Assembly: GCA_017517765.1 (NCBI GenBank)
Contig: JAFWYE010000006.1
Coordinates: forward strand, 186,001-250,000
Source: Bacilli bacterium
Lineage (GTDB): Bacteria; Bacillota_I; Bacilli_A; RFN20; DUOF01
Length of the DNA stretch: 64,000 nucleotides
Direction: 5' to 3'
The position numbers and the translations under genes were made by a program. This document shows positions 51,127 through 59,355 of this stretch, in pieces; the stretch's first letter is position 1; each line of letters starts with the position of its first letter. The notes beneath the pieces are model-generated. The model was not told the origin of the DNA. It did not search any database and saw only the letters and a program-made list of their open reading frames with translations.

Positions 51127-51432
51127 ATGGATTTAAACTATTCTAAATTCAAAGATTTATCCTTATCATCATTAATAGATAAGCTACTTTCATTATTTGG
51201 AGAGGAATTATCTATCTTAGCATGTATCATAGGTTTTGCCCTAACTAGCAATACCACAATTGAAGAACAAGATAGCATAGGTAACTTCTTTGAATTATTA
51301 GGTGAATTCATTTTAACAACCTCTGCACAAAATTACAAATTGCAATCCTCTAAATTGCCCTCATCTCAAGAATTGAAATCAGAAATTGATAATCTTTATA
51401 ACATAATTTTTAATATAAAAAGAAATCAATGA
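51127..51432 (+). CDS. Small helical protein, unknown
   Basis: This 101-residue protein has a hydrophobic segment in the middle (LSILACIIGFALTS) and otherwise mixed helices (SSLIDKLLSLFGEELS). AGGTGAAATAAAG precedes the ATG. No family is recognised. Its 3' end overlaps spoIVFB (convergent) by 7 bases. It is separated from the tiny upstream gene by a terminator, and no clear promoter of its own is seen. Confidence 0.5.
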   Translation: MDLNYSKFKDLSLSSLIDKLLSLFGEELSILACIIGFALTSNTTIEEQDSIGNFFELLGEFILTTSAQNYKLQSSKLPSSQELKSEIDNLYNIIFNIKRNQ

Positions 51433-52181
51433 TTTAGAAATTTTTTGATCACTGACTTCTCAGATAATATCTTCTTATCATATATAACATAGTTATTTTT
51501 ATAAATGTATAGATCTTTTTTGTTGTGCACTTTTTCTTTATATTTATTAATGAAATATAACCGTTTAAAAAGAAATTCTTTCCATTCTTTTTCAATAAAT
51601 AAAACATTAACTAATAGATTCATTATAGTAAATAAATACATCAAATATTGTTTATGTTCCCTTGTATAAATAACAAATAATAATATGAATACAAAAGATA
51701 TGCTAATTGACAATATCTTTGAGAACTTAAAAGTGAATATTTTATCTAAAAACAACTTTAATAGTCTGCCTCCATCAAGTGGATATATTGGCAAAATATT
51801 AAAAAGTAAAATATATTTGTTAGTTAATAAAGCCTTATGATAAGTAATCAAAGAAATTATATCATGAAGATAAAACTGATTTATAAGTATTTTACTTATA
51901 AAATAAGTCAAGGGCCCCGCAAGCAAAATAAGTATTTGCTTGTATGAATCTAGATGAGTGTAATCATCAATTTGACCACTAAATCCAAATATATTTAATT
52001 TTATTTTTTCTACTTTAACCTTAAATAAACTAGCCATAATAATATGGCCTAATTCATGGATGAAAGTTATTAGAAAATAAGTAAAAAACAATTTATAATT
52101 ACCTGTTAATAAAATAAGAATAAGAAACGGAATTATACTTATTCCCACCTCTAATTTACTAATTAGATATAGCATCTTCAT
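51426..52181 (-). CDS. spoIVFB: Stage IV sporulation protease SpoIVFB (site-2 protease)
   Basis: SpoIVFB is the intramembrane zinc metalloprotease that cleaves pro-sigma-K in the mother cell. The 251-residue M50 protein has FIHELGHIIMAS (zinc motif HExxH, residues 42-46), FGFSGQID, and FNILPIYPLDGGRLLKL (third zinc ligand Asp), within a multi-helix membrane core. No CBS domain is apparent at the C-terminus. It overlaps spoIVFA by 23 bases, the same gene order as B. subtilis minC-minD-spoIVFA-spoIVFB. Two ATGs (52181, 52175) are possible. Confidence 0.92.
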   Translation of the reverse strand: MKMLYLISKLEVGISIIPFLILILLTGNYKLFFTYFLITFIHELGHIIMASLFKVKVEKIKLNIFGFSGQIDDYTHLDSYKQILILLAGPLTYFISKILINQFYLHDIISLITYHKALLTNKYILLFNILPIYPLDGGRLLKLFLDKIFTFKFSKILSISISFVFILLFVIYTREHKQYLMYLFTIMNLLVNVLFIEKEWKEFLFKRLYFINKYKEKVHNKKDLYIYKNNYVIYDKKILSEKSVIKKFLNH

Positions 52182-52749
52182 ATGATACTTTCATATCATT
52201 TTTTATAAATATAATTCTAACTTTTTCATTATACGAACCAATTATATCATTAGAGTATACCCTATCATTACTAAAAACATTTACTTCTACCAAATCATAA
52301 TAAGTAGCCATTACCCCATTATCATATTCTATAATAACCATGTAACTATCATCTTTTCCATTTACATAACTTACCACACCATCATCTAATGATATAGCTA
52401 AGTTACCATCACTCATATAATAATCATTCCCTAAGTCAATATAATTAGTAGAGCCACTTACTACCATATCACCATTATTTTTATCCTTTATTATTCTTAA
52501 ATCTAAAAAATCATTAATTGTCTCATTAAATTCTTTAAAGTTAAAATTTGTCTTTAATACTGAATTTAAATATATCCCATTAACATCATTTTTAGCATAT
52601 ATAGCAAACCCTACAAATAAAGCATAAACAGTCATAAAAAGCATACATATTTTATATAAATTACTTCTTTTATTTATTTTTAATGCTTCATCCTTTAATT
52701 CTACATGTCTTCTTTTCAAACTTTTTTTAATCTTAGTTATATTATCCAT
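52159..52749 (-). CDS. spoIVFA: SpoIVFA-like membrane protein with degenerate M23 domain
   Basis: The 196-residue protein has a basic N-terminus, one membrane helix (about 31-50) and an extracytoplasmic domain resembling a LytM/M23 fold (ISLDDGVVSYVNGKDDSYMVIIEYDNGVMATYYDL), without the zinc histidines. This is the SpoIVFA architecture; SpoIVFA scaffolds and inhibits SpoIVFB until signals from the forespore arrive. The call depends on position directly before spoIVFB and after minD. GTG 52758 lies in the AGGTGA site; ATG 52749 is the start. Confidence 0.8.
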   Translation of the reverse strand: MDNITKIKKSLKRRHVELKDEALKINKRSNLYKICMLFMTVYALFVGFAIYAKNDVNGIYLNSVLKTNFNFKEFNETINDFLDLRIIKDKNNGDMVVSGSTNYIDLGNDYYMSDGNLAISLDDGVVSYVNGKDDSYMVIIEYDNGVMATYYDLVEVNVFSNDRVYSNDIIGSYNEKVRIIFIKNDMKVSYEDAISN

Positions 52750-52780
52750 AATTATCACCTAAATAAAATTATGTAAAAAA

Positions 52781-53554
52781 CTAACTAAATATTCTTTCTA
52801 ATATACTTCTTTTATACTTAAACATTCTCACTTCTTCTCCATTAAGTCGCTTTGCTATATTTAAATAGCATTTGTTTATTATGTTTTTACTTTCCATAAT
52901 AAGCGGAGTTCCATTGTTATTAGCTTTTATTATACTTTCATCTTCATATACAACGCCTAAAAGAGGAATATTTAACACCTCTAATACATCATTTATTCCA
53001 ATACATGTTTTCTCATCTATTTTTCTTGAACTCACCTTATTCATCACTAACTTTGTATCTAATATTGATTGAGAATTTAAAATACCAATAACCTTATCTG
53101 CATCTCTAATAGAAGTCACATCATTATTAACTACAACAATAGCCTCACTTGCTCCCCTTATAGCATTATAAAATCCTCTTTCAATACCAGCTGGAGAATC
53201 AATAAAAACAAAATCAAATTCCCTTTTTAATTCAACTATTATTTTTTCCATATAAATATAATTAACCTTAGTTACATCAATAGATTTACATGCTGGAAGT
53301 AAAAACAAATTCTCTAACCTCTTATCTCTAACTAATGCCTTATTAAGAGTCACATTACCATTTATTACATCTTGAATATCAAATATTACTCTCCCCTCTA
53401 ACCCTAACATAACATCTAAATTTTTCAATCCTAAATCAGCATCTATAAGACATACCCTATATCCCATATTTGCAAGTTGCCCAGCTAAATTCACACACAA
53501 ACTGCTTTTACCAACGCCACCTTTACCCGATGTAACAACTATCACTCTTGCCAT
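52781..53554 (-). CDS. minD: Septum site-determining ATPase MinD
   Basis: MinD is the membrane-binding ATPase that places MinC at the poles. The 257-residue protein has the deviant Walker A SGKGGVGKSSL (residues 9-19), CLIDADLGLKNLDVMLGLE, FIDSPAGIERGF and VNNDVTSIRDADKVIG. The C-terminal FKYKRSILERIFS is the amphipathic membrane-targeting helix. minC overlaps its start by 32 bases. Confidence 0.96.
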   Translation of the reverse strand: MARVIVVTSGKGGVGKSSLCVNLAGQLANMGYRVCLIDADLGLKNLDVMLGLEGRVIFDIQDVINGNVTLNKALVRDKRLENLFLLPACKSIDVTKVNYIYMEKIIVELKREFDFVFIDSPAGIERGFYNAIRGASEAIVVVNNDVTSIRDADKVIGILNSQSILDTKLVMNKVSSRKIDEKTCIGINDVLEVLNIPLLGVVYEDESIIKANNNGTPLIMESKNIINKCYLNIAKRLNGEEVRMFKYKRSILERIFS

Positions 53555-54128
53555 TATTTTTTTCTCCTATCCTATACTCAATATTTTTCATTTTATTATT
53601 TTCTAAATATATCATTTGATCATATAAATTATCAGTATATATTTGATATACTCCTCCAATCTTAACTAATGCATTTGATATTTCTTCACAATATATCTTT
53701 CTTTCACTATTTATGATTTCTATCTCTCCATTAATCTTTCCAAGTACGTATAAATTCCCGGCACAAATAATTTTACTTCCTCTATTTATATTCCCTATAA
53801 ATAAAATAGATTTATCATAAATACCTACTTCACCATTCCTAATATTACCTTTAATTATTGCTATTTCCTCTTTAATCTTTTTTCTAGAAATAATCTTACT
53901 TATTAAGTAATTATCTAACGTCTCAAAAATATCAAACAATTGAAGCACTTCTTTACTAGTGAAATTCCTAGAAAAAACCTCTAATATTACCTCTTTTCTT
54001 TTATTAGAATAAACAAATACTTTTTCTAGTCTCTCTTTAATTAATCTAAGACATTCGATATTATCTAATTTCTCATTAAGGATTATTTTTAATTTATCAT
54101 CACTATTAACTATCTTTATATATTCCAT
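53523..54128 (-). CDS. minC: Septum site-determining protein MinC
   Basis: MinC inhibits FtsZ assembly and is recruited by MinD. The protein (about 201 residues) has an N-terminal domain and the C-terminal beta-helix with GNIRNGEVGIYDKSILFIGN, GSKIICAGNLYVLGKINGEI, in the pattern R-x-G-x-x-V...GA-x-I-x-A-x-GNI-x-V-x-G of MinC. Two consecutive ATGs exist; the second (54128) is better spaced from GGAGGT. It is the first gene of minC-minD-spoIVFA-spoIVFB. mreB, mreC and mreD, which precede it in B. subtilis, are absent. Confidence 0.88.
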   Translation of the reverse strand: MEYIKIVNSDDKLKIILNEKLDNIECLRLIKERLEKVFVYSNKRKEVILEVFSRNFTSKEVLQLFDIFETLDNYLISKIISRKKIKEEIAIIKGNIRNGEVGIYDKSILFIGNINRGSKIICAGNLYVLGKINGEIEIINSERKIYCEEISNALVKIGGVYQIYTDNLYDQMIYLENNKMKNIEYRIGEKNNGKSDSCYIG

Positions 54129-54186
54129 CATTACCTCCTGATATCAATTATAATTAATTAGCATGTCGGAATTTGTAAAAATAAAA

Positions 54187-55116: not shown

Positions 55117-55791
55117 TTAACAATTCATTTGGCTGAATGAAAAATACTCTTTTTTTCCTATGATGATATGGTCTAATAATGGGATTTTTACTATTTTTGA
55201 TAAATTCCTAATATCATTAGTGATTTTTATGTCTTCTTCACTCGGTGTTGAATCCCCAGAAGGATGATTATGTACACATATTATGTTTTTAGCACCACAT
55301 AAAATTGCATGCTTAAATATCATGTTTATATCTATAAATGCCTTTGTTTCTCCTCCTTTAAATAGTGTTTCTTTTTTTATAATCTGTAATTTCACGTTTA
55401 AATAAATAACAATAAACTTCTCTTGTGATTCAAATTCCAAATCATTTCTAGTAAGATTATAGATATCTTTTGCACTAGTAAATGTTTGTATAAAATTTAT
55501 TTTTTCTTTGCTAGCTCTTTTACTTATTTCTAAAATAGCAATAAGTAGATTAGCTTTTGCCTTTTTTATACCTTTAATTTTCATTAATGAATAAATATCA
55601 CAATTTAATAGGTTATTTAAACCACCATACCTTTCTAATAATTCCTTTGAAATATCCAAGGCTGAATTATTTTTTGTTCCACTTCCTATTAATAATGCTA
55701 ACAATTCTTCATTACTTAAACTCTCTACACCTTCCCTTATTAACTTTTCTCTTGGCCTATCTGATGGATTTATATTTCTTATAAGACTCAT
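55117..55791 (-). CDS. radC: RadC-family JAB-domain protein
   Basis: The 224-residue protein has the N-terminal helix-hairpin-helix region (RPREKLIREGVESLSNEELLALLIGSGTK and LMKIKGIKKAKANLLIAILE) and the C-terminal MPN/JAB metal site VHNHPSGDSTPSEEDI. Despite its old name, a role in DNA repair is not established. In B. subtilis radC precedes mreBCD-minCD, and the position close to minC is kept here. The frame opens with GTG 55797, but ATG 55791 overlaps the stop of the upstream peptide gene (ATGA). Confidence 0.93.
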   Translation of the reverse strand: MSLIRNINPSDRPREKLIREGVESLSNEELLALLIGSGTKNNSALDISKELLERYGGLNNLLNCDIYSLMKIKGIKKAKANLLIAILEISKRASKEKINFIQTFTSAKDIYNLTRNDLEFESQEKFIVIYLNVKLQIIKKETLFKGGETKAFIDINMIFKHAILCGAKNIICVHNHPSGDSTPSEEDIKITNDIRNLSKIVKIPLLDHIIIGKKEYFSFSQMNC

Positions 55792-55970
55792 GACCACTCA
55801 AAAGAATAATTAGGGCCCAATGTGGCTTTTCCTTTAGAAGAGTTGTACATTTTATAACAAGCCACTAATATAGCAAGCACTGACATAAGGGCCATAATAG
55901 TAGCAGCACTTATATACTCTCCCCCACAAATGCTTGATAATTCTGATTCTCCTACCATTTCGAAACTCAT
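55788..55970 (-). CDS. Double-glycine-leader peptide (bacteriocin-like)
   Basis: The 60-residue peptide begins MSFEMVGESELSSICGG, which fits the class II bacteriocin leader pattern (ELxxIxGG) closely, with cleavage expected after Gly17. The 43-residue core is EYISAATIMALM..., a hydrophobic helix to about residue 40, then a hydrophilic tail ending YSFEWS. GTTATAAAGGAGGGG gives a very strong ribosome-binding site. No C39-peptidase ABC exporter or immunity gene is in the window, and the stop overlaps radC. It may be a bacteriocin, a secreted signal or a small membrane protein. Confidence 0.65.
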   Translation of the reverse strand: MSFEMVGESELSSICGGEYISAATIMALMSVLAILVACYKMYNSSKGKATLGPNYSFEWS

Positions 55971-56073
55971 ATATTTTCCCCTCCTTTATAACTTACATAC
56001 CATCAAAACAATAAAATGTTCCTTAAAATTTATTTTTTTATATTTTTGGACATAAAAGTAATCTTACTTTTAA

Positions 56074-58694: not shown

Positions 58695-58713
58695 AAAAAT
58701 AGGAGTGATAATA

Positions 58714-59355
58714 ATGAATAAAATAAATTATAAAGAAAGTATTAATATAGATTCTCTAATCAAAGAATTAATTCTTATCAATGTTGATGAAAACATTTCT
58801 CTTGTTAAAGAAGAAGATTTTGTTAACTTTAATGGGGAAATTAGAATAAGTGGTGAGGTACAAACTGATAAAGAAAAAAAAGAATTTAATCATCCATTAA
58901 CTTTAGATATTAGTTTGAGTAAAGAGCAACTAACAAGTGATTCGCCTTCAATTTCAATTGATGACTTTAAATATGTAATCAATGAAAATCTAATTGATAT
59001 AGAATTATCATTAAAAATAGAGGGGTTAAAAGAAATTGAAAATGAATTTCCTGCCCCAGAAAGTGAAGAGATTGTTCTTTCACCAATAGAGGATTTAAAT
59101 ATTAATAATCCTCACGAAGATGAAATCATAGAAACTTTAGAAAGTGAGCTAAAAGAACATAGTACTCTAATGAATCAATTATTTAAAAGAAGTATAAAGA
59201 AAACAAAAGCATATCTTATTCATGTAGTTAAAGAAGAAACAAGTTATGATGAAATTGCACAATTATATAATACAGATATAGATATCTTAAAAAATTATAA
59301 CAAAAACAAAGAGTTGACTAGTGGTTCATTAATATTTATTCCTAACACGAAATGA
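58714..59355 (+). CDS. SpoVID-like spore coat protein with LysM domain
   Basis: The 213-residue protein has an N-terminal beta-rich part with FNGEIRISGEVQ, comparable to the SpoVID/DUF3794-type domain, an acidic central linker (EFPAPESEEIVLSP), and a C-terminal LysM domain AYLIHVVKEETSYDEIAQLY followed by SGSLIFIPN. SpoVID directs coat encasement in B. subtilis; this one is much shorter (575 residues there). The next gene resembles ysxE, the B. subtilis neighbour of spoVID, which supports the call. ATG 58714 follows AGGAGTG. Confidence 0.7.
   Translation: MNKINYKESINIDSLIKELILINVDENISLVKEEDFVNFNGEIRISGEVQTDKEKKEFNHPLTLDISLSKEQLTSDSPSISIDDFKYVINENLIDIELSLKIEGLKEIENEFPAPESEEIVLSPIEDLNINNPHEDEIIETLESELKEHSTLMNQLFKRSIKKTKAYLIHVVKEETSYDEIAQLYNTDIDILKNYNKNKELTSGSLIFIPNTK

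Follow-up and report, generated by a model that had tools for sequence, protein, structure and literature searches.

Within the window, a stretch of 64,000 nucleotides from the genome of a Bacilli bacterium, a 60-residue ORF that overlaps radC probably encodes a conserved membrane peptide that is matured by an exporter-derived C39 protease. According to this model the product of the gene would be a precursor, to be turned into a small membrane protein that is conserved and spans the membrane once; the double-glycine (DG) leader of this precursor would be recognized and then cut after Gly-Gly by a C39 cysteine peptidase encoded beside ybeY; in the organism itself the cutting enzyme would be a stand-alone C39 domain of about 131 residues. 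The core of about 43 residues would remain in the cytoplasmic membrane after cleavage, with its Lys-containing, Trp-ending tail predicted to face the cytoplasm on the basis of the positive-inside rule. The C39 enzyme, in turn, would descend from a complete peptidase-containing ABC exporter (PCAT), kept at ybeY in related families and in mollicutes, and would have lost its ATPase in this order and, in some families, its membrane domain as well, with the catalytic residues and the leader being retained.

The peptide gene, its neighbourhood and its leader

The ORF is present as described in the initial annotation, which also correctly pointed out the ATGA overlap with radC, the very strong ribosome-binding site and the hydrophobic core (Table 1). 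The core is laid out as a single hydrophobic helix, followed by Y-K and a ..SSKGK...F-E-W tail. In Pfam the peptide gives a sub-threshold match to Lactococcin (PF04369, E 0.015, 15.9 bits vs a cut-off of 23.1), NCBIfam yields no match, and a description of this peptide family was not found in the literature. Neither immunity nor exporter genes lie beside the peptide gene, the neighbours encoding RadC, a band-7 protein, MinC, MinD, and M23 and M50 proteins. The window as a whole is devoid of an exporter, as had been noted, and the C39 peptidase of the genome is located elsewhere, on contig C4. The MinC, MinD, M23 and M50 (SpoIVFA/SpoIVFB-like) genes follow radC and the band-7 gene at 51426-54131, an arrangement like the radC-min-spoIVF cluster of Bacillus, and at 58705-59355 a protein of the sporulation coat type, with a SpoVID N-terminal (SPOCS) domain and a match to LysM, is encoded in what is a reduced Bacilli genome.

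Table 1. Features of the peptide locus in the window
Feature	Position	Strand	Basis
Precursor gene of a putative DG-leader membrane peptide, 60 aa	55970..55788	-	sequence; homologues in 54/58 relatives
Leader and core of the 60-aa ORF: MSFEMVGESELSSICGG followed by EYISAATIMALMSVLAILVACYKMYNSSKGKATLGPNYSFEWS	55970..55788	-	
Double-glycine leader MSFEMVGESELSSICGG (V-12, E-8, L-7, I-4, G-2, G-1)	55920..55970	-	position profile, 52 distinct homologues
Predicted C39 cleavage site after residue 17 of the precursor, at the end of leader MSFEMVGESELSSICGG		-	
Predicted mature core of 43 aa, EYISAATIMALMSVLAILVACYKMYNSSKGKATLGPNYSFEWS	55791..55919	-	family consensus YKLF.S..G...LPGGFKF.W
Strong Shine-Dalgarno sequence AAAGGAGGGG	55987..55978	-	sequence; equally strong sites in homologues
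ATGA stop/start overlap of the peptide gene with radC	55791..55788	-	sequence; (near-)overlap in 48/54 homologous loci
radC, positional partner, dispensable for peptide retention	55117..55791	-	PF04002/PF20582, NF000642

A whole-genome search of 58 relatives revealed homologues in 54 of them, covering 28 of 30 genera, and in a class-wide sample 40 genomes of the same order were among the matches listed, carrying the peptide at E < 1e-20. The named relatives are uncultured Bacilli from gut and rumen. Present almost universally in its order and as a single copy, the gene is preceded by a strong Shine-Dalgarno sequence in almost all homologues, and encodes a core that is better conserved than the leader (consensus xxLxxxExxxxxGGEAITLxxVMAxLAxAIVAVIxYKLFxSxxGxxTLPGGFKFxW). 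One genome (G034) has a divergent second copy away from radC, in which the site reads GKE rather than GGE (L069 1304-1483). There was no match on plasmids, a phage match only at E 0.8, and in PHROGs nothing but weak matches of unknown function; on the plasmid and phage results a mobile origin was rejected.

In the relatives the peptide gene is found in the neighbourhood of valS, rplU, rpmA and obg, and radC lies directly downstream in 48 of the 54 copies, usually overlapping. Among the six copies without radC in their locus, one belongs to a genome with two copies, the other of which adjoins radC, and the remaining five belong to genomes without any detectable radC, which nevertheless keep the peptide. 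In three of these (G028, G023, G030), which were inspected, it is still located downstream of valS, and it precedes the rplU cluster where downstream genes are visible in these three. Thus the peptide is independent of radC. Of the three initial suggestions, the one of an unusual small protein that is conserved along with radC is right, although its link to radC is one of position and not obligatory. Families f20 and f25 also have radC-linked peptides of the same family, although radC was not used as search criterion. In two f20 genomes (G289 and G189; L156 4509-5068 and L158 2-639) the radC-linked DG peptide occurs three times in tandem, with one diverged copy per array.

We scored six features of the leader, namely hydrophobic residues at positions -12, -7 and -4, an acidic residue at -8 and small residues at -2 and -1. 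At least five of these are present in 44 of 52 distinct homologues vs 0.16% of shuffled leaders, so that the DG leader proposed initially is real and conserved as a C39 recognition sequence. In the profile of the 52 distinct sequences E-8 (48/52), G-1 (50/52), L-12 (42/52) and G-2 (33/52) stand out, 69% of the sequences have a hydrophobic residue at -7 and the same share at -4, and positions -5, -6, -9 and -13 carry little information. In the co-crystal of LahT150 the C39 domain contacts the leader at positions -4, -7 and -12 (PMC6363468), and the conserved positions match the contact residues seen there. Part of the order shows less constraint at -2 (PG, VG, SG, AG, CG, KG), and in two homologues residue -1 is K or Y; cleavage of some copies may thus be inefficient or fail altogether. 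Several homologues exceed the cut-off of TIGR01847. With a leader model, further short DG-leader ORFs were picked up in no genomes of the order other than the four with a full-length PCAT. A prepilin-like reading was dropped upon inspection of the sequences, as the usual residue after the G is E and no prepilin pattern is apparent.

C39 proteins at the ybeY locus

A C39 domain (PF03412) is found in 54 of the 58 relatives, with scores of up to 82 bits, the protein of the organism itself scoring 24.9 bits vs a gathering cut-off of 22. This protein is a stand-alone domain of 131 residues, encoded on contig C4 upstream of ybeY-cdd-era-recO and predicted to fold as C39. The genome search for C39 ABC transporters, as called for in the initial annotation, thus brought up a stand-alone C39 peptidase, but a complete C39 exporter was not found in this genome. 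Hence, a C39 protein is present and the GG site is conserved among the homologues, the two points on which the proposed leader had been made to depend. A Na/Pi-cotransporter-like gene lies divergently beside the C39 gene on contig C4 (L117 6334-7266), and such transporters adjoin the C39 gene also in families f2 and f25.

The C39 proteins of the order differ in size. Nearly everywhere they comprise about 370-445 residues, except for 120-171 residues in f1, the family of the window, and in f2; in four relatives a C39 ABC exporter of full length (about 725 residues) is encoded in addition. The 42 longer proteins that were compared, at about 20% identity, all have Cys13 and His87; 40 of them have Asp103 (the aligned Asp being missing in G007 and G024) and 41 the oxyanion Gln, the remaining one having a gap at this position, whereas a Walker A motif was found in none of the 42. 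The AlphaFold model of a longer protein (pLDDT 92.8) contains six long membrane helices and has PCAT1 as best structural match (E 1.1e-12). Judged by fold, an ABC transmembrane domain is present in most of the order, absent in f1 and reduced to one segment in f2. Compared with complete PCATs the whole ATPase is missing, as are stretches of the TM2-TM3 and TM4-TM5 cytoplasmic loops, namely those that would contact the NBD. Without an ATPase and, in the family of the window, without a membrane domain too, the C39 protein is therefore incapable of export by itself.

In the order ybeY follows directly downstream of the C39 gene in 32 of 51 loci, many of the others being short loci or contig ends. 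In f20 a complete PCAT with C39 and ABC_tran is encoded upstream of ybeY, and ABC_membrane scored in three of the four proteins scanned. The genes for the enzyme and for its candidate substrate are unlinked, i.e. C39 is located at ybeY and the peptide near radC/rplU, and as both are near-universal their co-occurrence inside the order is weak evidence. The simplest history would start from one ancestral pair, a PCAT at ybeY and a peptide near radC/rplU, with the ATPase being lost in this order, and the membrane domain being lost in f1 and f25 and for the most part in f2.

A corresponding pair may exist in mollicutes. All 21 TGA=Trp mollicute genomes examined encode a C39 ABC protein upstream of ybeY (one frameshifted), and a DG-type ORF, mostly with a good ribosome-binding site, precedes rplU in 17 of 29 mollicute genomes if TGA is read as Trp, radC being absent there; among these 17, G178 has lost the GG, and G123, G160 and G099 need ATT or a similar start codon. 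In profile comparisons over the full length, four f22 peptides matched the radC-linked family with probabilities of 95-97%. As the match of the f22 mollicute cores alone is weak (probability 27%, E 7e-4, above 100 column-shuffled nulls), the homology of the mollicute peptides rests on leader, synteny and tail motif together. JCVI-syn3A 0401 has been described as a C39 transporter without identified DG substrate, and other mycoplasmas were likewise reported to have no apparent DG-substrate candidates (PMC6609329). Extending from the genomes of other mollicutes, the DG-type peptide upstream of rplU may be a candidate substrate of the mollicute C39 transporter, e.g. of JCVI-syn3A 0401. It is possible, if somewhat short of probable, that an exporter has turned into a maturation protease for which the DG leader, known otherwise as a signal for export and processing, is the removable pro-segment that controls how a housekeeping membrane peptide matures, and that the same peptide family is the substrate of the C39 transporter of mollicutes including JCVI-syn3A.

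Leader loss in family f25 and alternative explanations

In f25 the peptide was detected at convincing E-values in 28 genomes. In 17 of these the leader is gone, with a Shine-Dalgarno sequence and an ATG directly before the core, and in none of the 17 was a C39 gene found. By contrast, nine of the 11 leadered genomes have a C39 gene directly upstream of ybeY, none being found in the other two (G331, G372). This association of leader and C39 is significant if relatedness is ignored (Fisher p 8e-6), but the leader changed only about twice on the tree of YbeY, Cdd and Era, and thus there are few independent events. From the leaderless forms it seems that neither leader nor exporter is needed for use of the core, which favours a membrane-resident product.

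This bears on the proposals made initially that the ORF might be an orphan bacteriocin or a secreted signal. Export via a C39 ABC transporter, be it of an orphan class II bacteriocin or of a secreted pheromone, would account for the DG leader, and a bacteriocin also for the matches to Lactococcin and bacteriocin leader models, which are weak and under threshold. The gene is, however, single-copy and near-universal in the order, its synteny is fixed, its core is more conserved than its leader, leaderless versions are kept in part of a related family (f25), and the matching C39 protein has no ATPase and, in the window's family, no membrane domain. Moreover, a bacteriocin would be expected to come with an immunity gene and more than an NBD-less or lone C39, plasmid matches and convincing phage matches are missing, and the cores of the PCAT-adjacent DG peptides of family f17 are unlike the radC-linked core; for a pheromone of the ComC type, the core would have to be something other than a conserved membrane helix. 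We abandoned both proposals in view of the conservation, the loss of the ATPase and the leaderless forms, and consider them highly improbable.

A related question is whether the peptide is a small membrane protein with a GG-like N-terminus that arose by chance or has some other function, with the C39 protein acting on another substrate. Such a scenario, which we regard as unlikely, would fit the relaxed residues -2 and -1 in some lineages and the leaderless forms that are kept without processing, but conservation is concentrated at the C39 contact positions, leader loss coincides with the absence of C39 in f25, and no further DG peptide was found in genomes that have an NBD-less C39 only. A role of the peptide in tethering RadC to the membrane or regulating it there is very improbable: the start/stop overlap and the adjacency in 48/54 loci, seen also in f20 and f25, would be in line with a RadC partner, yet a RadC-dependent role is weakened by the five genomes that keep the peptide without detectable radC, and the mollicute DG-type peptides precede rplU without radC. 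We thus favour a conserved membrane peptide that is matured by the C39 protein, and its neighbours, i.e. radC, the min genes in the window and the mre genes in f20, hint at a possible role in envelope or division.

Comparison with known systems

DG leaders and C39 domains are usually taken as signs of bacteriocin or pheromone export. Here, they form a vertically inherited pair across several Bacilli families, a pair whose parts for export have decayed and which seems to retain only cleavage. The mollicute peptides, in addition, provide a concrete and testable candidate for the question of the JCVI-syn3A 0401 substrate raised in PMC6609329.

The C39 proteins of the order share catalytic residues, a PCAT1-like fold and, as predicted here, a DG-leader substrate with PCAT/AMS exporters such as PCAT1, LahT, ComA and SunT (PMC6363468). 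In contrast to these exporters they lack the ATPase, their cytoplasmic loops are shortened, the membrane domain is absent in the family of the window, the genes for enzyme and substrate are unlinked, and the putative substrate is a near-universal membrane peptide. The mollicute C39 ABC transporter (NF045998, Mbov_0121 family) is weakly matched by the NBD-less proteins, far under the cut-off, and is likewise encoded upstream of ybeY (21/21 mollicutes), but retains its ATPase. FapD (NF058616) and FilB (NF050078), which have amyloid and pilus roles according to NCBIfam, are also non-exporter C39 peptidases and give weak matches; they belong to different systems, however, with scores far under the family cut-offs, and are not PCAT-derived at ybeY.

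In family f17 (L163, L164, L175, L176, L179) several small DG-leader ORFs adjoin a complete C39 ABC exporter and have bacteriocin-like cores, many with a K-C end; a comparison of the cores showed them to be unrelated to the radC peptide. Class II bacteriocins (PF04369 Lactococcin, TIGR03949 cerein 7B) resemble the radC-linked peptide in leader type, small size and hydrophobic core, whereas the latter scores below their cut-offs, is conserved as a single copy throughout the order and has neither an immunity gene nor a dedicated exporter.
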